This document shows positions 1,178 through 58,056 of a DNA stretch of 64,000 nucleotides, piece by piece. Within the stretch, counting starts at the first letter, position 1. Every line of letters begins with the position of its first letter. The notes under the pieces are model-generated. The model ran no database searches. It was not told the origin of the DNA and saw only the letters and a program-made list of their open reading frames with translations. The stretch comes from Tetradesmus obliquus (Eukaryota > Chlorophyta > Chlorophyceae > Sphaeropleales > Scenedesmaceae): contig CP126196.1 of NCBI GenBank assembly GCA_030272155.1, forward strand, positions 2,108,001-2,172,000, read 5' to 3'. The translations under genes and the position numbers were made by a program.

Positions 1178-4100
1178 ATGAGGGCCACAATATGCGCCCT
1201 GGCACTGCTGTGCCTGGCAGCTGCTGCGCACGCAGAGATTATCGGCGACATTGAGTTGATGCGCCGTTCTGCGGAGCTGCAGAGCCAAGCCGTGATGGCA
1301 GCCAAGGCCAGCTCGAACACGACCGTGATGAGCAGCAACACGGCAGACAGCGAGACCATCGTGGACATCAGCAGTCTGCCGCTGCCAGCTCCCACCAAGG
1401 CACCTGAAGAGACTCCAGAGCCAAAGGCAGCAGCTGCTGCTGCCGCTCCTGTGTCTGACACCAAGGCATCAAAGCCCGCTGCAGGTATGGCATTCACTTT
1501 TGAGCTGACTGCCTGTCAGGCAGCCCCAAAGCTTTCTTGTCCTTGCCCAGCACACACTTTCATGGTTGCAGCTGCAGCAGAGCAGTTCGATCATCAGTTG
1601 TAACCGTGAACATGCATGAAACACGACTTTCAACCCGCTGCTGCATGGTATGTTTACCTTTGCAGGTGCGAGCAGGCCCAGGTCCACTGGCAGGGGAGCC
1701 CACCACAACAGGCCCATGTGAGTGCTTGCAGGAAATGGTTGCAGGAATCTCATCATGCATTTAGGCTGTGGCAAGGTCTTGCCAGCCCCATCTGTGTCTG
1801 TTGAGTGCACATGTATGCATGCACTGCCTTCCCCAGAAGACGCAGACACACCAGTTACTGAGCCAAACACCATTGTGGCAGCAGCAATAGTTCCTCTGTT
1901 AGCTGAGACTTGCAGTGCCAAATCACACCCTGACCACGCAGCTGCTGCTGCTGCTTCTGCTGCTACTTCTTTTATGTGTAGGGCCTTTGCACCCAAGGCT
2001 GCCAACCGCCGCGCAGCAATCCAGCGCAGGGCCGCCCAGGCCACTCGGCTGGCTGTAGCCGCCGCTCCTGTTGCTGCTGCGCTGATGCCCACTGTCCAAG
2101 TCAACATGAGCTGGCCCCAAGTTGCAGCTACTGATGCACAGCCATCTACCGCCACCCCCACCCCCGCCTCCACCCCAGCCCCTGCTGCCACTACTACTGC
2201 TACTCCCGCCCAGCAGGCAGCAGCAGAGCAGGTGGCTGCTGATGTGGCTGCAGAGCAGCAGTTTGGTGCTACTGCAGAGCAGCAGGCAGCTCAGGAGCAG
2301 CAGGCCCAGGAGCAGCAGCAGCTGAAGCAGGAGGCAGAGGAGGAGGTGCAGCAGCCTGCTGCTGCTGCTGCTGCTGCTGCCCCTGCCCCTGCTGCTGCGG
2401 CTGCACCCGCCCCTACCCCTGCTGCTGCGTCCGAGGTTGAGTCAACCGAGGAGTTGACCGAGGTTGAGTCAACTGAGGAGTTGACCGAGGTTGAGGAGGT
2501 GGTGGATGGGCCAGCGGCTGAGGAGGTGCAGAACGTTGAGGAGGCAACAGAGACTGCTGCTCCTGCCAGTACTGCCAGCAGGTGAGCCAGCAGCGCTTTT
2601 TGTGTAGACTCTGAAATGATTCAACTTGAGCAAGCGGGTTGTGATCGTCAGATGGATCAAAAGTGGCCTGAAGGCATGACTGCGCTGTGGTAACAGCAAG
2701 GCAGCTGCTGCTCGTGCTGAAGACATTGTGTTCAGCTGTTACATTCGCATGCATGTTCAGCGCACTGAGCACGTAGTACATATTGCATCTGGACCTCTAG
2801 CACAAATCTGTTGCGTCAGGCTCAAAACGCGCCCTGCTGCTATATCTAACGTGCCATCACCATGCTTTTTGCTGCCTGCTGCTGCAGGCGCCTGCAGTCC
2901 ACATCCGATGCAGCCAAGCCAGCAGCCGCCCCTGCCACAGATGCCACAAAGCCAGTCGTCATCACCCTCAGCACTGCTGCAGCCCCTGCTGCTGCTGCTG
3001 CATCCACCCCCTCTGCCAGCAGCAGCAGCAGCCCCAGCTCAGTCGCTACAGTTGCCACAGATGCCCTGAAGAAGGCCGGAGGCCAGGTGGCTGTGCTGCT
3101 GCTGTCAAAGGCACAGGATGCAATCAAGGCAGAGGATGAGAAGAAGAAGGCAATGACCAAGTCTGAGCCAGCTGCAGCAGCCACCAAGCCTGCAGCACCA
3201 GCAAACAAGACGGCTGAAACTAAGCCAGCTGATAAGGCAGCTCCTGCTAAGTCTGCAGCCCCTGCTAAGCCTGCTGCTGACAAGAAGCCGGCTGCAAAGC
3301 CTGCTACAAAGCCCACCCCAGCCAAGCCCGCTGCAGGCAACAAGCCAGCCAAGCGCTCTGCTGCAAAGCCTGCTGCAGGTGAGGTTGTGCACTGCATCTT
3401 CGGCTAATATAAGTGGCTACAAGAGCGACAGTACTGCTTGCAGCGTCTGTTGTGCCTCCTGCATCCCTCAGCTGCAACAGTCACAGTTGCAAAGCCCTTA
3501 TACATGCCCCAAATCCATGCCTGTCCGTTAAACTCTCCCCATATAGTCCCCTTTCATATTTGGCTTGAGTGCTTTGATAGATGATCAATGCATCATCATA
3601 CCCTCACACCCATTTGTTACACTGCCGTCCACTGTCACCACACCTGCTGCCACAGGTGCCAAGCCCAAGCCAGCCCTGGCCAAGGCCAAGCAGCAGCATC
3701 AGAAGCGCCCAGCTTTGACTGCCACACGCAAGGCAGCTCCGTGAGTACTACTTTGATACTAGCGGCAACAGAAGTACAATTGTTGATATTCATAGAAAGG
3801 ACAGCTTGAGTTAAAGACATGGCTGGTGAATGTCATGCAGTGGTGACACAGTCGAAGCAGTGACAGGTGTATCATTTCAGGCAACGTCTGATTGCACTAT
3901 CTATGGCAGCGAACTGCTGACAGCCGGCGCGTGCGACCACTTCGTCAACCCACACGTCTATGAAGTTACACGGTCTCTTCAACCCTGCTGCTGCTGCTGC
4001 TGCTGCTGCAGGGTGCACCGTGCCAACCCTGGCGCAGTCAGGGCGCAGCAGGCCAGGGTGGCGCCCCGCCCAGCAGCCCAGGCCCCCCACAGGCCTGGCA

Positions 4101-4721
4101 TGGCAGCTGCCCACAAGGTGAACAGCAACCGCAAGATGCAGCCCGGAGGCTTTGACAGGAAGATGGCTGGCCAGGCGGCAAGGTGAGGCTTGTTATTATT
4201 ATTGTTACAATATTATTGGTGACTATTGAGCCGATAACGTACCTTCACCGTCATCATGATGCAGCCGGGAGGCTTCGACAGGAAGATGGCTGGCCTGGCA
4301 GCAAGGTGGGGGTGACAGGGGTGTTATTTTCTCACTATGATGGTCATGCAGTGTTGTGTGAGATGGTGTGAAGATTCTGGTAGCTTGATGTGTAAATGCT
4401 GCATGGTTTGAATTGAAGAACAGGGAGATGCCGTTGTGCAGCTGCCCTGGCCGAAAATGGGCAGACATTGTTTCAGGTGGCACATATCATCTGATGTATA
4501 GCACAGAGCACGAGGCCTCGCAGTACTAGCTGCACTGTAAAGGCCAGGCAGCATGCATGTACTGTTTGCAGCATTTGCAGATGGGATGAATGATGACAAG
4601 CTCATGATTGACCATCATTGACGAGCCAGGAATGTTCACACTGCTGCCGCTGCTGCTGTTTGCCCCTTGCAGGAAGTCCCATGTTGTGGCTGCACCGCGC
4701 CGCCTAGCCAACAAGGCATAA
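1178..4721 (+). CDS. Secreted Ala/Pro/Lys-rich protein, 615 aa, function unknown
   Basis: Exon model: 1178-1484, 1837-2581, 2888-3378, 3656-3740, 4012-4182 and 4673-4721. These sum to 1848 nt, exactly 615 codons plus stop, and all junctions are GT-AG. The protein opens with a signal peptide (MRATICALALLCLAAAAHA), so ATG 1178 is preferred over an in-frame GTG at 1160. The middle is Ala/Gln/Glu-rich, with a repeated STEELTEVE motif near residue 300. The last third is strongly basic, with Lys-Pro-Ala repeats (for example KPAADKKPAAKPATKP). A short segment, NRRAAIQRRAA, resembles RRQDAIARRAANRK in the neighbouring secreted protein at 6012-9583, suggesting old paralogy. No enzyme or binding domain is recognised. 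A cell-wall or extracellular matrix role is a guess. The intron after exon 5 holds an echo of that exon's end. Confidence 0.7.
4258..4308 (+). repeat. Exon-edge echo: copy of the end of exon 5 of the 1178-4721 gene
   Basis: This intronic stretch repeats the last ~46 bases of exon 5 (4137-4182) plus the splice donor, with only a few differences. It encodes the same MQPGGFDRKMAG residues. The donor has become GTGGGG instead of GTGAGG. It is a direct duplication about 121 bases downstream of the original. Confidence 0.85.
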
Positions 4722-15860: not shown

Positions 15861-17559
15861 CAAACGGATTCACATCCTCCTCCTCCTCCTCAGCAGCAGC
15901 AGCAGCCTTGGAGCCAGCCGCGCCACCTTGCTGCTGCTGCTGCTGGGGCAAGCAAAAGCACTGCCCTGCTAGCTGTGAGAGCTGCTGCAGATCTGTATTA
16001 CGAGGCAGAAAAGCAACCACGCCAGCCCTGGCACTACGGATGGGCCTGCACACACACTGCCCGCTGCTCACTCCTAGCTGCTGCATCTGGCGAGCCACAA
16101 TGTCAGCCTGCTGCTGCTGCTGCGGGTTGAGCTCTATGGTCTTCTGCTTGTGCGTCTTCTGGCGCTTGCTGTGCTGCTGCTGCTGCTGCTGCTGCTGGGT
16201 AGGGATCACAGGGATGTTTTGGCAGCTGTTGTCATTGTCAGCAGCTGTTGTGGATGGTGCGCTGTTGCTGCTGTTATGATGCAAGTTGCAGTCTGCTGCT
16301 GCTGCTGCTGCTGCTGCTTGAGGAATGCTGGCATACGCCTCCTGCTCAGCTGCTGCTCCAGCCTCCTGCTGCTGCTCCGCGTCCTGCTGCACCCAGCCCA
16401 GCTGCTGCTGCTGCTGGTGTTGCTGCTGCTGCTTCTGCTGCTGCTGGCCCCGTGCCACGATGTCGTGGGAAATGGCCAGCAGCTGGGCCATGGTCACCGG
16501 CAGGCCCTCAAGACGTTGGTGCAGGTCAAAGGTGTCGCTGTACCTGAACACATCGCAAACAGCACAAGAAACACATGCTTAAGACAGTGCACTATCAATT
16601 GACGAAGCAGCAATGACATATATTGTAGAAACGGCACAGAGTTATACATGCACGCGGACAGCAGGTCCACAGCATGTGATGCAGAGAGCATGTTGCATGC
16701 ATGCGGATGGCAGAGGCGCAGACACATACACGTGCAGACCACGCAGTGCAGCAGCACTCACTGGTACAGCGGGCCTCCCCAAGGTGGTGACAGGACCACG
16801 CCATCAGCAGCCATGCAGCGGCACATGAAACAACCTGTTCAAGCAAAAACCTCAACCGAGAAGCAGCAGCAGTGCCACTCACTGGTACAGCTGGCCTCCC
16901 CATGGCGGAGGCAGGAACACGCCATCAGCAGCCAGGCAGCTGCAAATCACACAGCCTGATCAAGCAAGAAGCTCAATCAACCAAGAAGCAGCAGCAGCGC
17001 CACTCATTGATACAGCGGCCCTCCCCATGGCGGTGACAGGAACATGCCATCAGCTGCCAGGCAGCAGCAGATCAAACAGCCTGATCAAGCAAAAAGCTCA
17101 ACCGAGAAGCAGCAGTGCCACTCACTGGTACAGTGGCCCTCCCCAGGGCGGTGACAGGAACACGCCATCAGCAGCCAGGCAGCAGCAGATCAAACAGCCT
17201 GATCAACCGCCAAGCTCACTCAACCAAGAAGCAGCAGCAGCGCCACTCACTGGTACAGCGGGCCTCCCCAAGGTGGTGACAGGAACACGCCATCAGCAGC
17301 CAGGCGCGGCGCGACATCGAAGAAGTCGCCACACACAAATTGGATCTTGTGCTCTAGGCCGTACAGCGCGGCGTTGTGGCGCGCCATGGCCAGGCGCTCG
17401 GCTGAGATTTCAACGGCGATCACCTGCAGAAAGAACGGAGGGCAGGTTGCAGCGTGTGAGCCAAAGTGTGAAATGAAAAAGCCTGCTGGCGGTGGAAGAA
17501 CCGGTATCAGCTGAGACAGCAGCGGTGGCAGTTATTAGCAAAAGCGGCAGCGGTGTCAT

Positions 17560-17591
<32 letters not shown>

Positions 17592-19416
17592 GTCAGCGCA
17601 CAAGAAGGTGATCTTGTGCTCCAGGCCGTACAGCGCGGCGTTGTGGCGCGCCATGGCGAGGCGCTCTGCTGAGATTTCAACGGCGATCACCTGTTTGCAG
17701 CAGCAGGTGAGGGCAGGTCAGTAAGCTACGGAATGAGGCGAGCTGGCGGTCGCGGAGGGAAATGGAGGCAGGTTGAAGACGTAACAGCAGCAGATGGGGG
17801 CACAGCGGCAGCGGTGTCAACAGCAGCAGTGGTCAGCGCACAAGAAGGTGATCTTGTGCTCCAGGCCGTACAGTGCTGCGTTGTGGCGTGCCATGGCCAG
17901 GCGCTCTGCACTGATCTCAACTGCAATGACCTGCACGCAGCAGCAGGTCAGAGTAGTTGGTGAGTAAGCTGACAAGCGAGGCGAGCTGGCTGTGGCGGAG
18001 GGAACTGGAGGCAGTTGAAGACGTAACAGCAGCAGATGGGGGCACAGCGGCAGCGGTGTCAACAGCAGCAGCGTTCAGCGTACAAGCACTGAATCTTGTG
18101 CTCCACGCCGTACAGCGCGGCGTTGTGGCGCGCCATGGCGAGGCGCTCCGCAGATATCTCTACGGCAATGACCCGCACGCACGGGCAGACACATGTGGGT
18201 GAGTAAGCTGACAACTCAATGCTGGAGGAGCCAGCGGCCGTGAAGACGCAGCAGCAGCGGCGGCAGATGAGGGCGCAGCGGCAGCCATGTGTCGGCAGCA
18301 CAAGCGGCAGCGGTGTCAGCAGCAGCAGCAGCAGCAGCAGTCAGCGCACAAGAAGGTGATCTTGTGCTCCAGGCCGTACAGCGCGGCGTTGTGGCGCGCC
18401 ATGGCGAGGCGCTCTGCTGAGATTTCAACCGCAATGACCTGTTTGCAGCAGCAGGGTAGGAGTGGGCAAACGGAGGAGATGCGAATTGTGGGGTGGGGAA
18501 GATACCGGCGGCGTTTTGACACAGCAACAGCAGCAGCAACACTGTCACCAGCAGCGGCGACAGCTTGGCGGCAGCAGTTGCTGAAGCTCCTATACACATG
18601 ACCACATGCACAGCTGGGCCAGCAGCTGGTTGAGGTTCGTTGCCGCACCTTCTTGCATGTGCGTGCAAACTGAATTGCATTGCCGCCGCAGCCCGCAAAT
18701 GCGTCCACCATGACGTCACACGCACACATGTCTGCCTGGTGCGCAGCAACAACCTCAGGGGTCACCGAGTACCAGCCCTGCGGCAGCAGCAGCAGGCGTA
18801 TGCTTGTTCAGCGCTGTGCGCAGTGAAGAGCAGATGGCTGTGCAGCTGCATGACGTGCAGCACACGTTGCCTGGACTTCCTAGCATAGCATAGCAAATAC
18901 ACAGCTGCTGCTCAACAATCAAGGCGTGCATATGCAGTGTCGGCACAGTGAACAACACGCTATCGCTTTGCAAGGCGCTGCTTTATTGTGCTGACAGCCG
19001 CAGGTAGTAAGACATTTGAACAGAGCTGGCAGATGTGGTCGCACGCACAAGCTGCGGCGTTGATGCTATGGCTTGATGGGTAACATGATGATGATGAAGC
19101 TGCGGCTTTTTCAAAGCCAACCTAAACCTCACCTGCACGTCCATTTGTGCGCCCATGTCAAACCTGCTGAACAGGCTGTAGCGCTGCAGCCAGTACTTGG
19201 CCATCTTGCGAGGCAGCAGCTTGCGCACATACACAGCAGTGTCCACGTCCAGACCCGCAGCAGCAGCAGCAGCAGCCTGCGCGCCGGCAGCAGCGCACGC
19301 GGCAGCAGCGCCGCTGCCGGTGGCAGCAGCAGCAGCGATGGCGGCGGCTGCGGCGTCTGCTGCAGCACCTGTGGGGGTGCTGGGGCGGCTGCTGTTGCTG
19401 TAACTGGGGCTGTGTG

Positions 19417-21286: not shown

Positions 21287-22609
21287 ATCAGCTGCTGCTG
21301 CATCTGCTTCTTCAATGGGCCACACACCCACACACGGCAGGTAGGGCTCGGCAGGCGGCTCCCACTGAGTGACCTGCAATCAACAAAAACAGCAAGATGC
21401 TGAAATGATGAGACTTGCTTTTGATGACACATGTGAGCCAGAGGCTAAGACAAGGCAGGTAGGGCTCAGCAGGCGCCTCCCACTGAGTGACCTGCAGCAA
21501 CAAAAACAGCAACACGTTAAAATGATAAATTATCATACGACGACACATGTGAGCCAGAGGCTAAGCCAAGGCAGGTTTGGCTCAGCAGGCGCCTCCCACT
21601 GAGTGACATGGACACAGAGACAGATGCAGACAAGAAACATACACGAGTGTGCAACACACTCTTACGTGGTGCAACACACTTGCAGCACAAAGTGCGGATG
21701 ACACGAGGACTGTCGCTTGTCGAGCAGCATGCAACAGTACTGCCTGTTGCATCAATCACTCCTGCTTTGCCTGTGTATAAAATTCCGTATTGCCACACCC
21801 ACCTGCTGCTCCTCACAGTAATAGTAATAGCAGCAGCTGCTTGAGTCATATGCCTGCTGCCACCGCGGCACGCCAGCACCTGAGCCTGCCGCCGCCGCTG
21901 CTGCTGCTGTTGCTGCTGCTGCTGCATCAGTAGCATCACCAGCGCTGCCTGCTGCAGGACACCCCAGGCACGTTGCTGAGGCTGCAGCAGCTGCATGCTG
22001 CTGCTGCTTCTGATTGCTGCAGTCACCTGCACACAGAGGAAGACGCACAGGTCAACAGCCACACACTCAGGGACGACAAGCGATGCAGAAAACAGCCTGG
22101 CTAGCCAACACAAGCGCAGCCCCCCTGTGCACGTATGTGCCGCTGCCCCAAGCATGTGAAGAGCGGTCGTGGGTCAAGCTGCCCCAAGAGCCTAAACCCC
22201 ACATCAAATAAATGTGGATGCATGCAAGGCAGCACGTGCAGCTGTAGGTGTTGAGGGCAGGCAAGCAGCGCTAGTTCTGCAGATGCCTGTGATCAGCACC
22301 TGGAGCACTGGCCCTACATGCCTGCCCTTGACACCTATTGCTGCACGTGCTGCCTTGCATGCACCACGTATCACTGCTGTTGTTGCCACACTGGAGCCAA
22401 ACGACTCACACACAACATACATTCTCACACATACACACGCCAAATACTCATGTCCCGTATGTAGTTGCCCACCTGCTGCCTCTTCTATTCGGTTGCGCCC
22501 TACATGCTGCTGCTGCTGCTGCTTCTGCTTGCCCTGGTCGCTGCTGCTGCTGCTGCTGTTGTGGCCTGCCGCCTTCTCCTTGATCTGCTTGCCTTTCTTG
22601 CCCTCCTGC

Positions 22610-40918: not shown

Positions 40919-40984
40919 AACACATGCATACATGCATCAACACGAGGTAGGGTTTCTTTGTGGGCTTGACATGGCACCCATACA

Positions 40985-41365
40985 ATCCAAACCACCACGT
41001 GTTACAGGCTGGAGCCGGCAAGTGCCTCGTTGCCTGGGGCACAGTACCGGGTAAGCCTGCCGGCTGCTGAGCCTGTTACGCCACAAAGGCAGAAGCAGCC
41101 TGTGGGGGACTACAACTTGAAGCTGAGGAATGATGGCAAGGCTGCACTGCAAGATAGATGGCAAGTGCCTTGTTGCGTGGGGCACAGTGCCGGGTGTGCC
41201 TGTTGGCTGCTGAAACCCATGCACTAACACGAGGTAGGGTTTCTTTGTGTGCTCGACATGGAACCCATACAAACCAAACCACCTGTTACAGGCTGGAGCC
41301 GGCAAGTGCCTTGTTGTGTGAGGCTCATGTGCACTCTACAGTGCCGGGTGTGCCTGCCGGCTGCT
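40985..41365 (+). repeat. Echoes of the lectin C-terminal coding end, beyond the stop codon
   Basis: After the stop at 40918 the last ~60-100 coding bases recur at about 41005-41070, 41105-41214 and 41290-41368. The copies encode parts of NLKLRNDGKA, GKCLVAWGT and the final KPAGC or VPVGC. Each still ends in TGA at the equivalent place. One further short piece (AGTGCCTCGTTGGGCGGGG) lies near 41400. Confidence 0.88.
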
Positions 41366-41549
41366 GAGACTGCTTCATCACAGGATCAGAAGCGGCATAA
41401 GTGCCTCGTTGGGCGGGGTGTGGTGGCAGGCATAGCTGCTGGCTGTTGGAGCTGTGGTGTAGTGCCATGTTGTGTCACAGGATGCAGACTGTTCAGGAAC
41501 GTGCTGCCATAGAGGATTGCAGCTGTATAGTGACTTGTCACTATGGTCA

Positions 41550-44265: not shown

Positions 44266-45056
44266 TGCCTGAAGAGATGATGCAATGAAGGGGCCTTTGC
44301 ATGGAGCACGCTGCCAGGCGTCCCTGCCAGCTGCAGATAGCCTTCTGCGTGCTGCGCGCAGCGATCTTACTGTGCAGCATGTGATTCGTGATGCATGGAA
44401 ACATGGAGATTGCACGTAACATGTTACCTTGAAAGCGTTGACAGCAAGCACTTGTGTTTCGTGTCACACGTGGGTTGCCTTGAACAACTGGTGCGCGTTG
44501 CCATGGCTGTATGAACGCCAGGACCAGCAATGGTACCTATAGATGGCCAGTGGACACAGAGGATGGTGATTGGACTTCATCGTCTGCAGTGAACTTGTTG
44601 CGGTGACCAGCGATGCTCAGAGGAACCTGATTTCCAGCACTACAATCTGTGGACTTAGAGTTGAGGCAGGACTGCCGTGCACCAGCAGGAGCAACTTGCC
44701 TCTAAGCGCAGAACCAGGCTGCCGTCTTGGTTCAATTACTGCCTGCATTGCGTTGCTTTGCTGCGTGCATTACGTGATTGTGGATTTCTGGTTGCTTGCC
44801 GCTCCAGGCCTACACATGTATGCACACACCCTGTATGTCAGCATGTTGTCGGCTGGTTGCATTTCACGAGTCCTACACGTCCCACATACCAGAAGCATGC
44901 AAGCCTGCTTGCGGCTTGCGTGCTTTTTTTGCGAGCTGGCACAGACCTGTGCCACGTGGCACACAGCTGCTTGCACACAACTGCTTGCACATGTGAGCTG
45001 GCACATCAGGTCTGAGCTGCTACCTGTGACAAATGTCAGACTAATTGAACGAGAAT
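44266..45056. other. Intergenic region between the transposon and the FAD gene echoes
   Basis: About 790 bases. No gene was recognised. One CCAGTGGACA motif like those in the transposon occurs near 44548. The right part is probably 3' flank of the minus-strand monooxygenase gene. Confidence 0.45.
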
Positions 45057-45345
45057 GTGCCTTGCCATACAGCAGCTCTGCGTGCTCATCCACGGTTTGT
45101 GTGTTACACGACGGGAACACAGCCCGTTTTCGAGCCAATGACAGGCTCATTGGGCAACCACTACATCAGCCATCCACTCATCCAGCAGCTGCCGCTGTCT
45201 TGCAGCTGCTGCAGCCACAGCCGTCATTTTTAGGGGGCTGCTGCAGCCACTGGTTGCAGCAATTTGAAATGTGCCTGGCCATACAGCAGCTCTGCCCACA
45301 TATTCAGCAGCTGCCGCTGTCTTGCAGCTGCTGCAGCCACAGCCG
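45057..45345 (-). repeat. Echoes of the monooxygenase C-terminal coding end, beyond the stop
   Basis: Downstream (lower coordinates) of the stop at 45354, the sequence encoding AELLYGQAHFK...PVAA plus its TAA or equivalent recurs at about 45185-45300 and partly at 45057-45100. Spacing is ~110-120 bp. The copies are diverged in the last few codons. Confidence 0.85.
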
Positions 45346-45351
45346 TCACTT

Positions 45352-46959
45352 TTAGGGGGCTACTGCTGCCACTGGCTGCAGCGGCTTGAAGTGTGCCTGG
45401 CCATACAGCAGCTCTGCGCGCTCGTCCAGCAACTGCCGCTGCGGCACCCCTGCCTTCATTGCTGCTGCCTGCTTTGCTGTCAGCCCAAACACAGCCTTCA
45501 CACGTGGAATGCGCTCCGCCTCGTACGCCCGCAGCGCTGCTGCTGTGAGGCCCTGCTGCTGTATGTGCCAGCCTAGCACTGCTGCATCTTCTACGCTGAG
45601 CGCAAGCCCAGTTCCGTCAACGTATGCTGCATGCGCGGCATCTCCCACCTGCAGCATAGCATTCAGCCCAGCATGCAATACGAATTCAAGGAAGATTGGT
45701 GGAGAGCAGCGGCGCAAATTCTTGCTGAGAACAGGACTTGTGCTGGCTGCTCCCAGACCGTTCCAGCACGGTCATATGCATGCCCTCAACAATGAACTGC
45801 ATGCAGGACGATGTAGTATGCATCAGCAGCGTGAACGTGCAGGAAACATCCCAAGTCTTTACGCCGCTGCCACTCAGCCAAATAGCTATGATGCTATGGC
45901 TTGATGGGTAACATGATGATGAGCCAAATAGCCAGCGCCATGGAAAGCCGCCTCACCAGTGTGACATTGCCAGCTCCCCAGCAGCCGTCTGGTATCTGCT
46001 CTAGTGTGCGCTGGTACAGGCCATGCTCAGTGATGGCTGCTTCTGGCGTAGCCTCCACCACCTCCCTGAACACTGCAGGGAAGGACTCAAAGGCCTTCAG
46101 ACAGCGCTCCTTTGCGCTGCTGCTGCTGCTGCTCTGCTGATTGGAAGCATGGCTAGAGCTTGCCTCTCCTGCAAGCATCAGAGGCAGCATGATCGCAACA
46201 TGCTGGGGATTGATCATGCAACGGCTGCATGACAGATTTTGGGCAGCTCATGCAGGACAAGCAGCTGCTGGGGACAGCAGCAAGTAGCTTGCAACGACAG
46301 TGCTGTGATGGCAGCATCCTGCTCTAGCTGACCACCGGCAACCGCCTGCAGCTTGTTTTGCTGTGTGCTTGCGCGTAGCTGTTGACGGCTCGCACTGAAC
46401 ACTTATGATGCTGCAACTTTGACTGGGTGGCATGCGCGCCCCTACTGCTGCTGCTGCTACCTGCATGACACCCTCCAGCTGCTGCTGCTGCTGCTGCTGC
46501 TGCTGCATGCGCCACACACTTCCCATACAACGGGGCCGTATCCAGCCCCTTCTCCTGCTGCATGCATGACACACTCGTGCTGCTGCTGCTGCTGTGGCTG
46601 CTGCTGCTGCTACTGCTGTGGCTGCTGCTGCTGCTGCTGCTGTGGCTGCGGCTGCTGCTGCTGCGTCAGCCGCGCTGTCATCATCTCACCTATAACTGGG
46701 TCATACTGCAGGCCCTTCTCCCGCATCACAGCCACGGGGCAGTGGCACTGCCACACCATGTCCCCGCCAGGCAGCGGGATGAACACAGCCAGGGAGTCAG
46801 CAGAGTTGGGACCGGTAGGGGGTACCCACCTGCACAGCAGCAGCAACAGCGGCACACCAATGAGTTACTAGAACTTCTTCAGACCATTCTCGAAGTACAG
46901 GCGGATGAACACAGCCAGGGAGTCAGCAGAGTTGCGACCGGTGGGCGGCACCCACCTGC

Positions 46960-46998
<39 letters not shown>

Positions 46999-49764
46999 CA
47001 CCAATGAGTTACCAGAACGTTTTCAGACAATTCTCGCAGGACAGGGGGATACCACGGCAAGGGAGTCAGCGGAGTTGGGGCCGGTTGGGGGCACCCACCT
47101 GCACAGCAGCAGCAGCAGCAACAGCAGAAGTAGCAGCAGCAGGAGCAGCAAAAGAAGAAGCGAAGTACAGGCATTACCGCGATGAAGCAACGCATGACTT
47201 GGTATCAGGACAAGCTCTGCAAGCTCTCAGCTGCCAACACAGATCAACTGGATGCTTCCATGCAGGAAATCTAGTTGAGCTTCTGGGATGGCATTTAACA
47301 TTAAGCAGCAGTTCCACACAGCTGCCTGGCGCACGCTGCCTTGTGTGGTTGTGTGTGCACAAACATGCTCCGCATGTTATGGGTGCTTGTCACCATGCTG
47401 CTGTGCTGCGCATGTGCTGCTCACCACTTTGTGCGCTGCTCAGGCATGAAGTCAGGCTTGGGTATGCGTGCCCTGAACACCACTGCATCTTTGAAGGTGG
47501 GTGGGCCATCCTGCAGCACCTGCTGCCTGATGGGCGAGAACCAGCCGTCAGTGCCTGCGAGCAATGCACAAAGATTGTTACAGACATCCAAGCATTACAC
47601 AAGCAGCCTCATCGTACTGAAGTAAGATGCGGGTGAGTTTGCTGGGCGGGTTGATATGCGAGCTGGCGGCTGCCAGGTTTCGACTGAGGTAACAGTTATT
47701 ACATAAACCAACCAAGCTGCCTTCTCTGTTATAGGAATTACACGTGCCGTACGCCTCACCTATCAAGATGTTGCAGGTTGCAACAACCTCCGTGTCGCTG
47801 GCGCCGCTGCTGCTGCTTGCTGCCGGACCCAGCAGCTGAATGGTGCCATCCTCCTGCTGCTTGTAGGCTGTCACAGGGCAGCCGGTGCTGATGGAGCCTT
47901 GGGGCAGTGCTGCTTTGAGTGCGCCAGTGATGTCTGCAGCATGCAAACAAAATATGTGTGTTGCCTAACACTGAAAGGCACTACCGGCCGTCGCTTGTGC
48001 AAAATGACGGTAAGCATTGCCAAAGAAAGTTACACCTAGCGGCTGCTGCGCTTGTGCAGGCAGCTGCATGAACATGGCGCAACTCTCATGACGTCTGTCA
48101 AAAAGCAGCAGACGTCACAGTATTGCTGGAAGGCTCAGTAGCCGCGCTCTGCCGCTGCTGCTGCTGTTCAGCAACTGCTGTGTTGCATCAGCGATGTACT
48201 GCCTCAATGGGCCCACCTGACCATCCGAGCAGCGCATTGTGGAAGCCATACTTTTCCTGCAAGGGCAAACAAACCAATTGAAATGAGTATGATACCAATG
48301 CAAGCGTCTGCGCATGCACGTTTGAGCGCAGCGAAATCGCAACAGGCAAGCTCAGGCAAGCACAGGCGCCAGGCGGCCACCTGGCGCTGCTGCCTGCCAT
48401 CCCACACAACTGCATCATTGCTCAGACAAGTGCAGGTGCCTGCCAGGCTAAGGATTACATTCCAGCAGCCACAACAGCTGAGCTGGATCTCACGGGCCGG
48501 GCTGCACTAACTGAGCAAGCAGTACGTGGTCAAAAGTGACAGTTAACACGATTCGATGACTCGATTTCGTACCTAACACAAACCCGCCCACCTGAAACAT
48601 GTCGTTGCGCATGGCCATGAACTCAATGTGCTCCCCAGTGATCATGTTGTAGCGGTCTACAGCAGCAGCCGTCAATGCATGTGTCATAATCATGATCAGG
48701 TAGTCCAGCCAGCAGCAGCAGCAGCAGTGCAGTGCTGCTTGTAAGCCGGCACGCGGCACATGCAGCTGCAAGCATTCGCTGGCAGCAGTCTGACAGTTGC
48801 TGTTCTTGCAGAAGACAACACTTGCAGCCATCTTTGCAAACAACCGCGTTGCGCCAAAAATCAATGACGCATGATGTAGCAGCCCACCAAGCAGCATAGG
48901 AACTATGCCTGCACCTTCTGTTGCTGCTGCTGTTACATCTGGTGCCGCTGTTGCTACTGCTGGCGCTGCCCGCTGCAGCTGTCGACTAAAAGTCAAACTT
49001 GGTCAAAGATAACTTATTTTGTAACGCACCGCTGCCCTCCAGCTTTGTGGCCTTTGCAAGCAGGCCAGCCAGCAGCTGCGGGTCGATTGCCTGCAGTGCC
49101 TTGAGGCCATTCACTCCAACCAGGATGGCGGCACCCCTGGCTGTCATAGCTGTCTTTTCAAACACGTGCACTGACTTTTGGCCCTTTGTGGCCACCCGCA
49201 GCGCTGCTGCTGCTGAGAGGCCTGCGGCAGCATAGGTGAGAGGTAGATGTCAACTGCATGTGAGAAGGGTTGCACTGGGTTTCCAGCACAGTTCAGCGCA
49301 GTCCTGCGAGGTGGCAACTTGCCTCTCACAATGGATGATCTATGTCACAGCGCCATTCACCAGCATGGGCAAGTGCAAGTAAAATCTGCTGCAACTGGGT
49401 ACTGCTGCAGAGCAGTGCATCTGCTGGTGAAGTGTTATGCACATGCGTGCTATCATGCTGCTGCTACTACAGTGCTGCTGCTAATGCCATAGGCACGTTT
49501 TTTCCAGCGGTCCTACATTCTTGGACGTATGATGTACTTCGTACATAATCAACGTCAACATAGTGACAGCAGTCCTGCAAGCCGTTGACTGCACCATGTG
49601 GGTGCTGCTGCTTGTCCAACCCCACCTGCTGGCCCCGCTCCCACAACAGCCACATCGTAGTGCTGCACCTGAGCCAACACACGCAGTCGATCGCGTCTAC
49701 TGTGTTTTACCAGATGATAAGGTCTGGAACCTGAGGCGACGCTACTGTTGTGCGTGTGCAGCAT
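45352..49764 (-). CDS. Plastid-targeted FAD-dependent monooxygenase, 462 aa
   Basis: Nine exons: 49764-49626, 49221-49030, 48656-48592, 48256-48217, 47933-47760, 47554-47425, 46829-46690, 46168-45957 and 45648-45352. They total 1389 nt, 462 codons plus stop, all in phase. It is a p-hydroxybenzoate-hydroxylase-type flavoprotein: the N-terminal dinucleotide fold VAVVGAGPAG (~40), a middle DG motif IGTDGWFSPIRQQ, and the FAD-ribityl GD motif VGDAAHAAYVDGTGLALSVEDA. Relatives include zeaxanthin epoxidase and aromatic hydroxylases; the substrate cannot be told. The usual prolines after GDAAH are replaced. The basic Ser/Arg-rich first ~33 residues look like a transit peptide. An in-frame upstream ATG at 49962 is an alternative start. 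Exon echoes occur at 46888-47110 and past the stop. The intron between the last two exons contains the dispersed 38-bp repeat. Confidence 0.85.
45889..45925 (-). repeat. Dispersed ~38-bp repeat, copy 3 (monooxygenase intron)
   Basis: Reverse-orientation copy of the 10036-10073 repeat, in the intron between the last two monooxygenase exons and close to the exon 8 donor, as copy 2 is close to a donor in TGS1. Confidence 0.7.
46888..47110 (-). repeat. Two echoes of the monooxygenase exon 46829-46690 start
   Basis: Upstream of the exon, the start encoding WVPPTGPNSADSLAVFI recurs at about 46900-46958 and 47040-47100. Both have CAG acceptors preceded by CTG repeats. The nearer copy keeps the frame for ~19 codons. 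Confidence 0.88.
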
Positions 49765-49964: not shown

Positions 49965-51970
49965 TGCAATGAACCCTGTTCAGCAGCTGTCAGCTGGGCT
50001 GCATATCTGCAGCAACCCAAGATGATAATACGCTGCTCCAGCAACTCACAGACTCGCATGCAACTGTAGTAGCACTTGAGCCCTGCACTGGTGGGCAGTA
50101 CAGAATGACGCTGCAGCCAGCACAACGGTTGGGTTGTACTGCAGCACGCCTATGGGATACGCCAGGGCTTGACGCTGATGGTTGAAGACCCTTAAAAGTT
50201 GCGCAAGTTACATTTCAAGAAGGTAAGGGAAGCAACAGATCAGCGGATAGGCAGCCAGTGCACTGCTTGGTCTGAGACCAAGCAAGTACCAATCTGCACC
50301 CAGCGAGGTGGACCCGATCACGCCAATCCGTATGCAGCTGCACAACCACCACATGATATGGATTGCCCTGGACAGGGCTGCGGGTGAGATGCTGATATGT
50401 GTTGCAGCAATGCACAAGATGCATGCTGCTGCCTTGGCCAACCCTTGCTACAGTGACCACAATTCACTGAACTCCGATACAATTTTGGAGGTGGCGCGTG
50501 GCATAACAAAGCATACTCGGGGGGTGGGGGAGCTGACAATCACACGCGCAAAGCATTGTATAGAACACATCACCAGAGTGTTGCACCCATTATCGCAAAA
50601 TACTTGGGCTCCATCATGACAGTGGAGCACCTAAGACATACACAACACAACCATGATCAAGGAACATAGCACGCCGCAAAACCACAGCAGCGCAGCACTA
50701 CAGCAGCGCAGCGCTAGAGTGCCAAGGCACAGCGCTGGCTAGGAAGGTCAAACACAAACAGAGTGCATTGAAAGGACAGCGTCACCGCAGTGCAATCCAA
50801 ACCTGATACCCGGATGACTGCTGCCCACATTGCGGAGTGAGCGATTTACTTCTCAGATCAATGCTTTTTCACAGCCCATAAACTGTCCAGGTGCTGTTGG
50901 TGAACAGCCAGCAGCCTATTTTTTGGTGAATATCCAGACTGCGCATTACGGCAAGGTAACAGAGTAGCAGGAGGCCCTGCAGCATTTGCGAGACCTAAAC
51001 TGGTGGCACTGCAGCAATAGCAGCCAGCACACACCACAGCACGATGTCTATCATGACTGTACATGGCAATCATGCATCTTCAGCAGAAGGAGGTCAATGC
51101 AACCACACACACGAGGAGCAGCAACCGATGGAGCACAACAATGTGCACGTGTGTGTACACACGCATCAAGCACACCGTCATCTGAAAGCCCAACCTTCAG
51201 CACGCTGCAGTTTCAGGCATCCATAACTACATGGGAGAATCAGCAAACACATGCGAACCCACTGTCCAGTGAACAGTTGCAACGCAAACAGTTGTCATTA
51301 GTAACGAAACCCTTCACGGCACAGGCATACGTATGCAGTATATATTCAGCAAAGCAGCGGCATGACAGATTGATACATCTGCAAACACACAGCAGCAGCT
51401 GATCTCCGTGTATGAGGTGCCAGCATGACAGATTGATACATCTGCAAACACACATGTCCCCACGAGCTGCTGTGCGGCAGATTCCAACTGATGCTTGTCA
51501 TACAAGGCAGCAGCTGTCACAAATGACACAGACTGCTGCCAACGCAACTAGGCACGGGTAGTGAAGGATGCACACCAAGCGCCGCATGACAGAAAGCTTA
51601 TCTCCATGCGAGCGTGCAAGACTGAAACCACCGGATGTAAGGTGCAACTCCTACAAAGCATGAGCGTCTAAGCAGGCCAATCAAGCCCCACCTGGTCCAT
51701 CACACTGCGGCACACCACCACATTCTGCAGGGGCAGTGCTCAACACAACCTCAACCTCAACTGGCCCAGCTGTGCTGAAAATGAACTCCTAATACTTCCC
51801 AAGGCACACCTGCCACAGTGCAACGCCACAACTTATGACTGCATGCAGCTTGACGGATGCACTCAAGGCAATCCTGCGCCCCACTCTACTGCCAGAAGCT
51901 TCTCACAAGCCAGACCGTGGCAGCAGCAGCAGCAGCAGCAGCCACCGCCGCAGGCCTGTGCCCAACTCTG
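49965..51970. other. Intergenic region, about 2 kb, no gene supported
   Basis: Lies between the 5' end of the monooxygenase (-) and the 3' end of the SulP gene (-). No protein-like frame was seen. A ~30-bp direct duplication (starting CATGACAGATTGATACATCT) occurs at 51361 and 51424, spacing 63. Echoes of the SulP C-terminus begin near 51971. Confidence 0.5.
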
Positions 51971-52110
51971 CTTACTGCTGGTGTGTGGTAGCTGCCAGCC
52001 TTGCCAGTATCCTTCCATCAGCAACGCCCACGATGCAGCGGCAGCAGCACATCTGCGATAAAGTGCTCTACTGCTGGTGTGTGGCGTAGCTGCCAGCCTT
52101 GCCAGCATCC
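51971..52110 (-). repeat. Two echoes of the SulP C-terminal coding end, beyond the stop
   Basis: The last ~40 coding bases with stop, encoding [10 protein letters not shown], occur at 52165-52205 and again at about 52068-52108 and 51971-52012. The period is ~97 bp and the copies differ by a few bases. Confidence 0.88.
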
Positions 52111-52166
52111 TTGAAAGCAGCAATGCCCACAATGCAGCGGCAGCAGCACATATGCCATGACGCCCT

Positions 52167-55100
52167 CTACTGCTGGTGTGTGGCGTAGCTGCTAGCCTTG
52201 CCAGCTTTGCTGGTGATGTCATTGCCATCTGTGATGAGCACCACGCTGCTGCTGCTCTCCTCGTTGTGCAGCTCCTCCTGCGCAGCGCGCACCGCGTCGT
52301 GTGTGTGCACAAACACCCACTTGCGCGGCAGGCTGTCGTGGATGTGGATGCGCTCCAGCATGCGCATCAGCTGCAGGAACAAGAGATGAGACAAAGAGTG
52401 GCAGCAGCAGCAGCAGCAGCACAACAAGTGTGTCAGATCTTGTGGCAGGCTGTCGTGGATGTGGATGCGCTCCAGCATGCGCATCAGCTGCAGCAGAAAA
52501 AACAAAACACATAGCAGCGGCAGCAGCAGCATGGCATGGGTGCCAGCATGTGGGCCGACACTGAACTGGCTGTCCTGGATGTGGATGCACTCCAGCATGC
52601 GCACCAGCAGTAGAAAAAGCAATTGCCGCTCAAGGCAGCAGAAGAACTGGAGTGGGTGTCCGGGTGTGGCGGCGGTGCAGTGGCTGCTGCTGTGTACACG
52701 CATGCAGCTGTGCCGGGAGAGTTGCAGCAGCCTCTGCAAGACGACACACGTGAACAACCAATGAACAAGCACTACAAGCAGATAGCGGCCGTAACACCAG
52801 CCGGGAGGCAGCAGCAGCAGCAGCAGCAGCAGTGTCTCACCTGGTCTGTGGGGTTAGCCAGCACCAGCTGCACCCCCTTCTCCTGCAGCTCCTTCGCTAG
52901 GTCCAGCAGCATGTGTGCTCCGCTGCTGTCACTTCGTGTAACAGGCGACAGATCCAGCACCAAAAACCTGACACCGCTGACTAGGCCTGCCTCATTTGCA
53001 AGCTCCTGGCCTGCTGCCAGGTGGTCTGCAATGGAATTCTCAAAGTGGGTGGTGTTGGCAAAGAAGAGGGGCGCGTCCAGGCGCACAATGACAATGCCGG
53101 GGATGGTCTCTGCACCTGGGTACTTCTGTACACTCCTGCAGCAGCAGCGACAGCAGAGGGACCAGTTGGAAGTGGTTGAGCCAAATAAGAGTATGCTTGG
53201 TTTGACAGGGCTAGGGTGCGTCCAGGCGCACGATGACGATGCCGGGGATGGTCTCTGCACCTGGGTGCTTCTGCACACTCCTGCGAGGATTTTACCAGCG
53301 GACAAAGGGCAAATGCAGGGTGTTTTGAGTCCTTGTACAGTCATGGAACAAGAAGAGGCAGGCGGCTGCGCCTGCTGCCGTCTTGTTTTCTGGCGCGTAC
53401 ACGCAAGCTACAAATCCACACCAGGCATATCTGGCAGCTTCCAGGCACAAGCATGCATGAACATGCCACCACCATGTGCACATTGCTCTTGCCAACGCAT
53501 CCCAGCTGTAAAGTGTGTAGAAAGGAACACACAAAACACAACTGACAAGAAGCTACGCACCTGTACACATTGCTCTTGCCCAGCCGGCCTAGCTGTGCAC
53601 TGTGTGGGAATGACGACTCCAGCACCAGGATGAGCAGGCTGAGTGCGATGCTGCTCATCAGGCCATACTCCACGCCAGCAAAGGTGGTCACCACGAAGGC
53701 CACCAACCACACAAAGAAGTCACGCAGGTGCGTCTGCAGACACACAGACAGGCAGGCAGGCAGGCAATGTTGTTCAAGTGATGTTCAGCATTGGCGAGCC
53801 AGGACGAGGGCGAAGCAGGCCGTTGTGTTGTCCCTGTTGTTAGCTCAGCAAAGCAAGCCTCCTTACAAGACGCAACACTGCTGTGCAGTCACATGCAACA
53901 AGCGCATGCTTGCCACTGGTCTTGAACAACTGGCATAATACAGCGATCAAACGTGCACTGCATCAACACCATGCAGCCGCACAAAGCTGATGCATTTTAA
54001 ACAAAGCTGCTGTTGTTTGACCTCCAATCCTAGCCAACCGTAAAAACCTTGATATCTTCCGTCCAAACCCTAGCCATTGACTCACCCTGAACAGCTCGTA
54101 GGCCACGCCCACCTCCACCAGCTGGATCACGCCCACAATGATAATTGCGCCCATTGTGTTGTACGGCATCAGCCGGAACACCGGCGTCAGGAACAGCAGC
54201 ACGCACATCACAATGATGCTCGTGACAAAGCCGCTGAGGTTGGTCTTTGCGCCGCAGCTGTTGTTGATGGCGGAGCGGGAGAAGCTACCAGTGGTGGTGT
54301 AGCTACTGAACATGGCACCCGCAAAGTTGGCGAGCCCAAGTGCCACGATCTCCTGGTTGTACTTCAAGTCTGCATGTACCAATCAAAGAAGTGTGACAGC
54401 ACAGGTTTGAACAGTGTGAGAGAAGCTACCAGTGGTGGTGTAGCTGCTGAACATGGCCCCGGCAAAGTTTGCGAGGCCCAGGGCGACGATCTCTTGGTTG
54501 TACTTCAGGTCTGCAGCATGTGAAACGTGTAAGGGCACAGGTTTCGAATGTGTGAGAGAGGGAGCCTGTGGTCGTGTAGCTGCTGAACATGGCACCCGCA
54601 AGTTGGCCAGGCCCATTTGAACCAGTCATCTGCACGCAATACACCACGTCTGAAGTCGCCTGACTAGCAGACGAAGCCACCTTTATTGGAGCCAGCACCC
54701 ACCGTAGCCGTTCTTGCGGGCCAGAGCGCGTGCAATGGATGTTGACTCCAGCATGTCAACTGCCAGTACAATGAAAGCCAGCGGCAGCAGCTGTCCAATG
54801 TTGCCAATGGGCACCCAGTCCTGAATGGAAACTGGCGGCAGTCCTTGAGGGATGTTCTTTACGATTTTGATGGGGCCCTTGCCTGCAGCAGCAGCAGCAT
54901 CAGCAGCAGCAAGCACGGCATTCTCAGCATCATTCATGTAAGGGGCAGTCTGGAAAACAAACACTAGTGCAACCATTGAACAGCCGCTGTGCACCCCTGA
55001 CTCCCCACACTGCCACCACAGCTCATGCTCTGCACAGCTCAAGCAGCAGCAGCATCAAGCAGCAGGAACAGCAGCATCAAGCAGCAGCAGCAGGAGCAGG

Positions 55101-55670: not shown

Positions 55671-58056
55671 CATCTTCACAAAACTTGCTAATGCCTCAAA
55701 CCCCAACACACTGCATGAAAGTACTGCTACTGCTGCCAACCTGCCAGCAGAGCTACTTGGGCTCACCACATTGCAATGCAACACAGCAGCATGAAGCAGC
55801 ACGACCAGCAGCGTCCTGCCCAGCCCACCTGCAGCGTGTCCTGCTTCTTGTAGCTCACGCCCAGCAGGTACTTGACCTGGCCCGCAGCAATGACCAGCGC
55901 TGCTCCAGATGTGAAGCCTGTGATCACTGGGTGGCTCAGGAAGCGGATGAGGAAGCCCAGCCTGAACAGGCCCACTGCTGTGTACAGGCAGGCCACCAGG
56001 AAAGCCAGCTGGATGACGTTCTTGTTGTACTCAGCCTGTTGTGGTGGTGGGGGAGGAGTGATGCAGCAACAGGGTCGGCAGTGTGATGCAGTGCACAGCG
56101 GGATGATGTGTACAGGCAGGCCACCAGGAATGCCAGCTGGATGACGTTCTTGTTGCATTCCGCCTGTGAAGTGAGGCAGGTGCAGCAGTGTGGGTGAAAC
56201 AGTAGGACTTGGGAATGATGCAATGCAGAAGCACGCCGCTAAGACGGTCAGGTGAACGCCTTTCACGCAGTCTCTTGACTAGGCTGTTTGTACAAACATA
56301 TTCTGTAGCAGAAGCTTGACTGCACTCACCTGGATCGCCACTTGCTCTGGCTTCGGATCATTGAGATCCAGGATGCCATCGCAGCCAGGCACAATCCCAG
56401 CCATGCCGCTGACGATCAGCCCAGCCACCAGCCCACATCAGCATCAAACTTTCCAGCTCTTCCCGAGACAACTAATGTTAAGCCCTTACAGCTGAACAAC
56501 AGCAAAAACACGAACATTGGTGCAGTGCCTCACCTGGATTGCCACCTGCTCTGGCTTGGGGTCATTGGGGTCCAAGATGCCGTCATAGCCAGGCACAATC
56601 CCAGCCATGCCGCTGAAGATGAGCCCGGATGTGACAGCCACAGGCCCCACACCCAGCTGCCGGCAGGAGCCAAACAGCGCGTAGATGAGCACCGGCAGGA
56701 ATGCGCCGTAGAGGCCCATGACGGCTGGCAGGCCTGTGATGTTGGCGTATGACATGCCTTGAGGCACGACTGTGAAGGCGACGGCAAGGCCTGCCATGAG
56801 GTCAAACTGCAGGGAGAGGGGTGCAGGGAAACAGGTTGGACGGCATGCAGTGATTTGATAATGACAATGAAGACGTGCGATGTTGGCGACGACATGCCTT
56901 GAGGCACGACTGTGAAGGCCACTGCCAGGCCCGCCATCAGGTAAACTGCAAGACAGCAAATAAACACAGGTTGAGATTAAGGGGGCAGCAGCCGCGTAGT
57001 GTTAGCGCAGCACATGCCTTGAGGCACGACTGCAAGGCCTGCCATCAGGCAAACTGCAGCCCGCAGCGGGAAGGGGTGCACGAGAGCAGTCAAAAGATAT
57101 GCGGAGGCAAGGGGTGCACGAGAGCAGTCAAAATAGATGCACTGATGTTGCCGTGCGCCCTGCCGCGTATGCGACCTATTCATGCAGGGGTGCCCGCATT
57201 CATCGCAGAGTGTCAAGCAGGTGTGAAGGCGGTAGCAGTCACAGCCTGCACACAGTTGCACACCACTGTCCTGCAGGGCCACCAGGGCTTACACAAAGCT
57301 TATGATGATCATCAGCACAAGTCGTTCATAGTGCATTCCAGCCTGCCAGCTGGCAGGAAGGTCACTGACATGATGTGATTACATATTTATAAGTGCACGG
57401 CCGCCGCACTCACCAGCAGCCACTCTCGCAGCTTGTAGCCTCTCAGCCAGCCCAGGCATGGCAGTGCGGTGCTGGCGATGCTCCATGCGGTGTACTGATT
57501 CTTGGAGCGCCTGGAACGTTCCAAGGAACAGCGGCAGCAGCAGCAGCAGCAGCAGTCAGTACACAGGCGTCTTGAGGACTGACCTATTGCATGCATGATC
57601 GAAGTGAATCAGCAGGGAATAAGCAGTGAAGCATTGATGCGAACAGACACATGCACAGGGACGCTTGCCCAAGAGGTCTGGACTGCTGACAGCCTGGAGC
57701 AAGGAACATCATCGGCATCATCGGCATCATCGGTGGGCGGGATGAGGCCATGGCTGGCTGGGATCACTAATTGCCACATAGAACAGCAAGTTGTTCCTTC
57801 TGCTGCAACAATTGGAGCAGCAGCCAGCCAGACAACATGAGACGCTTTGCTGGCGTTCCTAAGCAGCCCACCTGGTCTGGCGTCCACGCCACCATGCCTT
57901 CACGCTGTCCAGCTCTTCATGAGCGGAATCGAAAGGGTCAGGAGTGTCTTTCTCAAACGGATAGTCCAAGGGCTGGTTGCTGAGGGACATGCGCCGCATC
58001 TTGCTGCCTGTGACGTCCTCGTTATCCGCATCAATCTTGCCAAATGTTCGCTCCAT
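52167..58056 (-). CDS. SulP-family sulfate transporter with STAS domain, 728 aa
   Basis: Eleven exons: 58056-57872, 57510-57414, 56806-56534, 56035-55829, 55633-55518, 55208-55117, 54963-54703, 54369-54086, 53733-53561, 53135-52841 and 52370-52167. They total 2187 nt, 728 codons plus stop, all in phase. The acceptor at 54963 was chosen for phase; an alternative CAG lies eleven bases on. SulP (SLC26/SULTR) proteins move sulfate across membranes, in plants and algae usually with protons. Visible marks: the SulP signature [20 protein letters not shown] in exon 3, about ten hydrophobic segments from exon 2 to exon 9, [20 protein letters not shown] with [11 protein letters not shown], and a C-terminal STAS domain ([20 protein letters not shown]) of about 165 residues. 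The cytosolic N-terminus is acidic. Echoes flank most exons. Confidence 0.9.
52441..52612 (-). repeat. Two echoes of the last SulP exon start
   Basis: The start of exon 11, encoding [15 protein letters not shown], recurs at about 52441-52491 and 52568-52612, upstream of the real exon. The first copy keeps the CAG acceptor and the protein sequence. The second reads [13 protein letters not shown]. Confidence 0.9.
53219..53284 (-). repeat. Echo of the SulP STAS exon start
   Basis: The first ~65 bases of exon 10 (53135) recur upstream with a CAG acceptor and about six differences. The reading [20 protein letters not shown] is kept with one replacement. Confidence 0.9.
53484..53530 (-). repeat. 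Echo of SulP exon 9 end
   Basis: About 45 bases repeat the end of exon 9 encoding [12 protein letters not shown], here [11 protein letters not shown], downstream of the exon. The donor position reads ATGGTG, so the GT is displaced. Confidence 0.75.
54419..54625 (-). repeat. Two echoes of SulP exon 8 start
   Basis: The ~95 bases encoding [20 protein letters not shown] and following residues recur at 54419-54512 with a GCAG acceptor and near-identical protein. A shorter, more diverged copy lies at about 54552-54625. Confidence 0.9.
56100..56165 (-). repeat. Echo of SulP exon 4 start
   Basis: About 60 bases upstream of exon 4 (56035) repeat its start: [19 protein letters not shown] against [19 protein letters not shown], with an AG acceptor. 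Confidence 0.9.
56326..56430 (-). repeat. Echo of SulP exon 3 end
   Basis: About 100 bases downstream of exon 3 repeat its last ~33 codons with a GTGAG donor: [20 protein letters not shown] against [20 protein letters not shown]. Most other differences are synonymous. Confidence 0.92.
56878..57060 (-). repeat. Two echoes of SulP exon 3 start
   Basis: Upstream of exon 3 (56806) the start encoding [16 protein letters not shown] recurs at about 56878-56945 and, shortened by a few codons ([11 protein letters not shown]), at 57005-57060. Confidence 0.88.

Follow-up and report, generated by a model that had tools for sequence, protein, structure and literature searches.

Do introns of the green alga Tetradesmus obliquus hold partial copies of the exon edges that adjoin them, and if they do, what produced these copies and are they of use to the genes that carry them? 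New introns and splice sites are known to arise by tandem duplication that spans an exon border, although this has rarely been caught. The question was raised by a 64,000-nucleotide stretch of the genome (the window, G000:C6:2108001-2172000, in an assembly of 104.66 Mb in 17 contigs), where a sequence-only reading had described direct copies of exon edges, here called echoes, inside introns or just past stop codons. The window has a GC content of about 0.56 and its genes are intron-rich. In the gene at about 52-58 kb, two exons joined together match Pfam PF00916 (sulfate permease), and the exon at 17253-17423 matches PF09445 (RNA cap guanine-N2 methyltransferase). Dense (CAG)n/(CTG)n runs occur at 15141-22985, in predicted exons as well as introns.

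Exon edges are throughout the predictions of a crude, purpose-written hidden Markov gene finder that works from sequence and had as its training set the window plus 20 random loci of 10 kb each. It produced 409 introns (median intron 247 bp, median exon 103 bp), with a donor consensus of AG/GTGAG and an acceptor consensus of TGCAG/G. Arrays and their placement were counted in 304 kb, made up of the window and 24 random 10-kb loci, four of which (L029-L032) lay outside the training set and entered the placement count only; codon and flank tests covered the window and 20 random loci. These yielded a redundant set of 132 edge-containing pairs, and silent changes and indels were counted in the 93 of them that had correct geometry and at least 27 exon bases.

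Direct repeats in the window and at random loci

A self-BLAST of the window returned 63 pairs, 58 of them less than 3 kb apart and 54 of these 58 in direct orientation. The echoes of the sequence-only reading are real at 12 of its 14 groups of coordinates, each of which contains a direct repeat close by at E ≤ 1e-2; the best E values of these groups range between 7e-174 and 3e-8. The groups at 8751 and 26321 have none at this threshold and show, by eye, a short weak likeness to the neighbouring exon end. Table 1 lists the arrays of the window. Across the window and the 24 random loci, local pairs were direct in 202 cases and inverted in 25, and the direct pairs group into 95 arrays. The random loci alone (240 kb) contributed 69 arrays, 42 of them at exon edges, with at least one edge array in 13 of the 24 loci. 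Echoes are thus not a matter of chance, and the finding is genome-wide. The density amounts to about 175 visible edge arrays per Mb, or some 18,000 by extrapolation if the random loci are representative, and such a genome would allow the rate of duplication origin, the spliced share and the speed of loss to be measured, and exon borders to be tested as mutation hot spots.

Table 1 Repeat arrays at predicted exon edges and gene ends in the window (positions count from the first nucleotide of the window).
Feature	Position	Strand	Details
Exon end with donor, 4132-4188; echo in intron, 4255-4311	4132..4311	+	Period 123; 89% over 57 bp; intron flanks not alike (p=0.078)
Cap-methyltransferase-like gene, exon-end echo array	16748..17305	-	Units ~118-125 bp; PF09445 on neighbouring exon
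Cap-methyltransferase exon start, acceptor 17423	17341..18455	-	Four echoes upstream in gene: 17690, 17930, 18172, 18438
Acceptor edge 21373, two echoes	21332..21610	-	Period 118
Acceptor edge 26168, upstream echo	26025..26218	+	
Acceptor edge 29576, upstream echo	29413..29600	+	Period 132
Acceptor edge 33175, upstream echoes 32927 and 32771	32761..33280	+	Nearer echo: 105 exon bases identical
Donor edge 33391, downstream echoes 33537, 33661, 33807, 33948	33321..34011	+	270-bp unit
Three sets: exon-interior copy 38728/38985; acceptor 39317, echo 39140; donor 39532, echoes 39685, 39831, 39894	38728..39897	+	
Last predicted exon repeated past its end	40814..41396	+	
Repeats at predicted gene end	45054..45441	-	122-bp unit
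Acceptor 46829, echoes 46955 and 47098	46768..47141	-	
Sulfate-permease gene, repeats at donor 52196 and around 52327-52622	51969..52622	-	
Acceptor 53135, echo 53280	53069..53284	-	Intron flanks unrelated
Acceptor 54369, echo 54510	54279..54615	-	10 differences, all silent; second, frame-broken copy ending near 54613
Acceptor 56035, echo 56163	55976..56167	-	Exon is PF00916
Donor 56533, echo 56329; acceptor 56806, echoes 56945 and 57053	56325..57059	-	

In the median, the aligned copy of an edge array is 79 bp long and its period is 123 bp (interquartile range 115-146), with 51 of 60 periods within 85-155 bp and 14 within 115-120 bp. Direct, adjacent copies of a short unit, as these are, are a feature of break-repair tandem duplication. 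Arrays confined to exons have a median period of 117 bp, and 10 of their 11 periods are divisible by 3. Period distributions did not differ significantly between edge and exon-only arrays (Kolmogorov-Smirnov p = 0.35) or between edge arrays and non-coding arrays (p = 0.09, the latter a small set of 15 that includes five periods of 550-671), so a single duplication process with a unit of about 120 bp can serve the remaining arrays as well.

Stacked alleles or stacked reads in the assembly could in principle mimic such repeats, and some copies do differ only silently, as alleles might. Against this, a single edge can have four echoes, in which as many as 12 of 81 sites are unlike the exon, arrays with a period of about 120 bp occur on many contigs, the exon-only arrays keep their multiples of three, and the assembly comprises just 17 contigs for 104.7 Mb, all of which makes an artefact extremely unlikely.

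Repeats of other kinds were also seen. At L009:2941-5139 a 551-bp unit that includes predicted exon pieces is repeated at 99% identity, probably as a very recent array. A minisatellite of about nine 81-bp units occupies 29989-30769, apparently directly past the stop codon of the gene that ends near 29989; the gene finder predicts part of it as exon, probably wrongly. A dispersed short element of 34-39 bp occurs in both orientations at 10035-10073, 19056-19094 and 45889-45923 with 100% identity. Long imperfect palindromes (self-inverted repeats, 73-85% identity) lie at 22214-22367, 24073-24233 and 41554-41668, and 41539-41589 matches 44212-44262 in inverted orientation at 98%.

Placement, geometry and intron flanks

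The 95 arrays comprise 60 at exon edges, 15 in non-coding DNA only, 11 within exons, 6 with exon-interior copies in non-coding DNA and 3 at a start or stop codon. In 2000 random placements of segments of equal length, 26.3 edge arrays (sd 3.9, maximum 40) and 45.2 non-coding-only arrays (sd 4.7) were expected, so that echoes are indeed commoner at exon edges than random placement gives. The 24 random loci taken alone (42 of 69 arrays at edges, 12 of 69 non-coding only) agree, and the four held-out loci point in the same direction (8 arrays at edges, 4 in non-coding DNA, 2 in exons). Duplication by break repair should, in an expectation of our own that is no published definition, disregard gene structure in its placement, and this is not what these arrays display. 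An earlier permutation that shifted the annotation (72 edge against 55.8, sd 4.8) mixes both copies of a pair and is superseded by the random placement.

Part of this excess could reflect what is visible and what is tolerated. We simulated duplications placed at random under five settings, with introns and echoes decaying freely and exons constrained; units with two or more edges or with a start or stop were dropped, and decay rates were assumed. Among the simulated arrays that were detected, 20-38% were edge and 46-56% non-coding, against 63% (60/95) and 16% (15/95) observed. In setting one, detection favoured edges just 1.4-fold (373/586 against 880/1972 events). As modelled, visibility and tolerance account for the edge excess in part, not fully, in a comparison whose weak points are the home-made gene models and the assumed decay rates.

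The sequence-only reading had also stated an order rule, according to which exon starts are echoed upstream and exon ends downstream. Among the 132 redundant edge pairs, 54 acceptor edges are echoed upstream and 41 donor edges downstream, as the rule has it, while 18 acceptor and 19 donor pairs are reversed. We think that the opposite geometry is partly due to the gene finder calling some echoes exons. The predicted acceptor at 52487, for example, probably belongs to an echo, as the exon predicted there holds the repeated segment twice. A special process is not needed to explain the rule, because only one copy can remain joined to the rest of the exon.

On the intron side, 21 of 74 edge events lose their similarity 2-9 bp past the splice site, 12 of them at 3-5 bp; in the others it extends further. 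The flanks of this short-flank class are not alike: only 3 of 21 reached p < 0.05 against other introns, and an anchored flank test gave 4 of 30 redundant pairs. These echo flanks nonetheless score as splice sites, near real ones. The polypyrimidine score of the short-flank acceptors (n = 9) is 0.15 (sem 0.62), compared with 0.68 (0.70) for real acceptors and -1.92 (0.19) for random intronic CAG. Divergence of the exon parts at codon positions 1 to 3 is 7.7, 9.2 and 16.0% where there is no alignable intron and 7.8, 5.3 and 13.9% where there is, a small difference overall. The unrelated flanks could belong to old duplications that lost their intron parts, with the exon parts kept by chance, selection or conversion, or could result from copying that has its edge at the splice site. 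When a fixed splice-site boundary was compared with eroded old duplications, the data were compatible with both. We also considered an origin from divergent alleles, in view of the silent differences and unrelated introns, and rejected it: the ratio of third to first-and-second position differences is 1.89 where the alignment includes fewer than 12 intron columns (26 pairs) and 2.13 where it includes 20 or more (25 pairs).

A rival reading is a process aimed at splice boundaries, in which an exon edge and a few intron bases are copied at breaks, or by template switching, in connection with transcription or splicing; exon edges would then be hot spots, and copies would begin at the splice consensus. 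The excess of edge arrays is what such a process would produce, as are the peak of intron extension at 3-5 bp with flanks that are unlike yet resemble splice sites, and the rarity of exon-interior copies in non-coding DNA. Periods are, however, much the same in the short-flank and long-flank classes (medians 121.5 and 124 bp, p = 0.34), so that one process may serve both, and old events would erode to the splice consensus in any case. In a sulfate-permease relative (L036, contig 15), moreover, about 76 bp of intron and 69 bp of exon are present as a plain tandem copy (period 142; 85% identity in 150 columns), one of whose breakpoints lies deep in the intron and the other in the exon. We regard a boundary-directed process as a tentative and less likely alternative. 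In a broader form of the idea, this lineage would have a duplication process that favours exon-intron borders, advances in steps of about 120 bp, perhaps at staggered breaks from splicing-coupled transcription, and continually seeds introns with ready-made splice sites and in-frame exon pieces; we consider this conceivable and rather doubtful.

A test for coding constraint on the echoes

The 93 edge pairs contain 323 silent and 302 amino-acid-changing differences (52% silent), 8 stops in 1775 codons, and 49 indels of which 42 are out of frame. For a neutral echo whose exon tolerates silent changes, a silent share of 37-46% is expected, a range set by transition bias and by the number of changing differences that the exon accepts. 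Echoes that the gene finder called exons are 57% silent (31 pairs, p = 0.0003 against 46%), and those that it did not call exons are 48% silent (62 pairs, p = 0.59). With the cap-methyltransferase array left out, 49% of differences are silent over 83 pairs (p = 0.14). Most echoes therefore look like passengers, while a minority may be something else, and general protein constraint on echoes was rejected, the methyltransferase array excepted. Mutually exclusive or tandem coding exons, in which a whole exon is copied with its frame intact and kept under protein constraint, were likewise not found among these pairs, since the copies are partial and their indels mostly break the frame; the methyltransferase array stands apart here too, yet it also consists of partial copies.

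In that array the four echoes of the exon start at 17423 (minus strand) differ from it at 3, 12, 11 and 6 of 81 sites and encode the exon's 27 residues save for one Leu to Val change. Over the five copies, 17 of 81 sites are variable, 14 of them at third positions, and 13 of the 14 changed codons are silent. This pattern is what would be expected if echoes were used, either as alternative or repeated exons or as regulatory splice sites under selection. The sulfate-permease echo at 54510, whose differences are all silent, would fit as well, as would the 8 of 93 pairs with at least five differences, at least 75% of them silent, and no frameshift or stop (several of these come from the methyltransferase array), the high silent share of exon-called echoes and the splice-site-like scores of echo flanks. 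On the other hand, the frame-breaking indels, the near-neutral silent share of echoes not called exons and of the pairs outside the methyltransferase array, and the absence of the rest of the exon from the copies all speak against use. The methyltransferase echo at 18172 lacks an AG at its edge and is nearly all silent nevertheless, which argues against simple exon use even there. Use as a general account of the echoes is thus very unlikely; for the methyltransferase array itself, the candidate explanations are gene conversion, a use of some kind, or a divergent functional exon as the source of the copies.

The sequence-only reading had proposed a lineage with an unusually active process of local duplication that makes or lengthens introns or supplies them with alternative sites. 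Active duplication, genome-wide and with an excess at exon edges, agrees with our counts. The useful outcomes find no support in them; most echoes decay like passengers.

Origin of the echoes and their turnover

The reading that we favour, with a probability of roughly 0.55, is that echoes are the survivors of frequent short tandem duplication, most likely from break repair, tolerated where one intact exon remains and mostly decaying as passengers. The mutation would be a tandem duplication with a unit of about 60-180 bp, typically about 120 bp, arising in the repair of staggered or nicked DNA, probably by end joining. Because such units exceed the median exon, many would cross a splice site. 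Where an intron end and the exon start that follows are doubled, the downstream copy would stay joined to the exon and the upstream copy would turn into intron; where an exon end is doubled, the upstream copy would stay exon and the downstream copy would become intron. We infer that duplications crossing an edge pass the filter of tolerance because they leave a complete exon, splice site included, and duplications within an exon would survive mainly as multiples of three. Arrays may then grow and shrink. Echoes would mutate nearly freely and the true exon mostly silently, with the intron parts blurring first, so that the exon edge stays visible. This account leaves the full edge excess, the unrelated flanks of 21 of 74 events and the nearly all-silent methyltransferase array unaccounted for.

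Several known systems resemble parts of this picture. In a potato gene, a new spliced intron, proven by RNA, arose from a duplication that spans an intron-exon border, and a second duplication of 83 bp lies in an intron of the same gene (2016, PMC4974935). As there, intron end and exon start are here tandemly doubled beside the original with the splice signals copied too; unlike that single gene with its RNA-proven intron, the present arrays are numerous, with about 175 visible at edges per Mb, and are seen in genomic DNA. In the Rogers AGGT model, an exonic AGGT is copied by tandem duplication and the duplicate is spliced out as an intron (described in PMC4974935). Tandem duplication near coding sequence could similarly supply new splice sites here, although most of our copies lie inside existing introns. 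Repair-mediated duplication in vertebrates captures proximal DNA, which can include exons and the splice sites of introns, and in the human genome 824 proximal cases were counted after pairs within 50 bp had been removed (Pace et al. 2009, PMC2671141). These too are short local duplications of neighbouring DNA, some with filler in vertebrates; copy-to-copy spacing in our arrays, in contrast, is about 120 bp and their visible density is far higher. Small tandem duplications also form at DNA breaks through CST/Pol alpha-primase and end joining, mostly as short (<100 bp) insertions (Schimmel et al. 2021, PMC8355091). Staggered breaks are the source in that system and its products are short direct tandem duplications like ours, while the link to exon edges that we see is absent from the passages on break duplications in that paper.

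Density and the excess at exon edges are what set the present arrays apart from the known systems. Short direct tandem duplications reportedly also follow adjacent nicks in plants (Schiml and colleagues, 2016) and are said to make up natural insertions in rice (Vaughn and Bennetzen, 2014). Among the open-licence titles listed by our literature searches, none reports an exon-edge echo pattern in an alga. Introners copy themselves into many genes, and the echoes are like them in that intron-associated sequence is mass-produced. Introners would leave many similar copies dispersed in unrelated genes, and the echo spacers do not have this feature. A search of the alga's own genome with 18 joined spacers, which skips very common words and so does not prove rarity, returned 21 matches: the 18 sources, two in the same 10-kb locus (L023) and one of 33 bp on another contig. 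Dispersed elements were accordingly discarded as the origin of these 18 spacers.

Arrays differ between paralogous genes, which indicates that copies were gained, or lost, after gene duplication. L033 and L034 form an inverted gene pair on contig 11, with 97 mismatches in 3396 aligned columns of a long block. Two donor edges of L034 are echoed (periods 94 and 75) and neither is in its close paralog L033, while in a more distant copy (L035, contig 5) both corresponding exon ends are echoed, with three copies at the second. That corresponding edges were affected in L034 and L035 would also suit a boundary-directed process. The lack of echoes in L033 may alternatively be due to deletion between repeats. 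L033 was taken as the empty site in a search for junction marks such as filler or microhomology. For one event in L034, the spacer has a weak likeness to the intron next to it in L034 (p = 0.011) and none to that of L033 (p = 0.20), and for the other it resembles neither at p < 0.05 (0.097 and 0.064), in a comparison in which L033 may itself be a deletion.

Exon and echo end in CAA in L034, whereas exon and echoes end in CAG in L035 (partly by eye). The last exon base is thus gene-specific and common to exon and echo, so the echoes either arose separately or were homogenised. Homogenisation would mean gene conversion between echo and exon, which would preserve the likeness of the exon parts as the introns drift apart, the border of similarity at the splice site being the limit of conversion. 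The array at 32927/33175 could be read in this way, with 105 of 105 exon bases identical and a diverged intron flank. Where the alignment has 20 or more columns each of exon and intron (24 pairs, near-identical L009 rows excluded), intron divergence is 1.40 times exon divergence; this counts in favour of tandem duplication with decay, since by our reasoning a free echo beside a constrained exon predicts a ratio of about 1.6. Tested pair by pair against this simple model, the exon part is significantly too similar in 3 of the 24 (in L020, for example, 0/47 differences against 23/74), as conversion would have it, but significantly more diverged than predicted in 5, and independent origin after gene duplication explains CAA and CAG equally well. 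We consider conversion unlikely as the main explanation, and tandem duplication with passenger-like decay remains our preferred one.

The sulfate-permease relatives L036 and L037 (contig 15) have arrays of their own. In relatives on contigs 5 and 13, the searched permease edges matched once each among the best candidates scored, with no second copy reported, in selected segments where echoes may be missed. Gain and loss of echoes thus seem to recur, and a given edge can be struck more than once. At 1430 of L036 (reverse complement) and 1004 of L037, the intron lies about 48 nt further into the coding sequence than that of the window gene at the echo-rich exon 54369. In another sulfate-permease relative, at G000:C14:2163644-2164663, one exon piece is matched five times in steps of about 213-241 bp.
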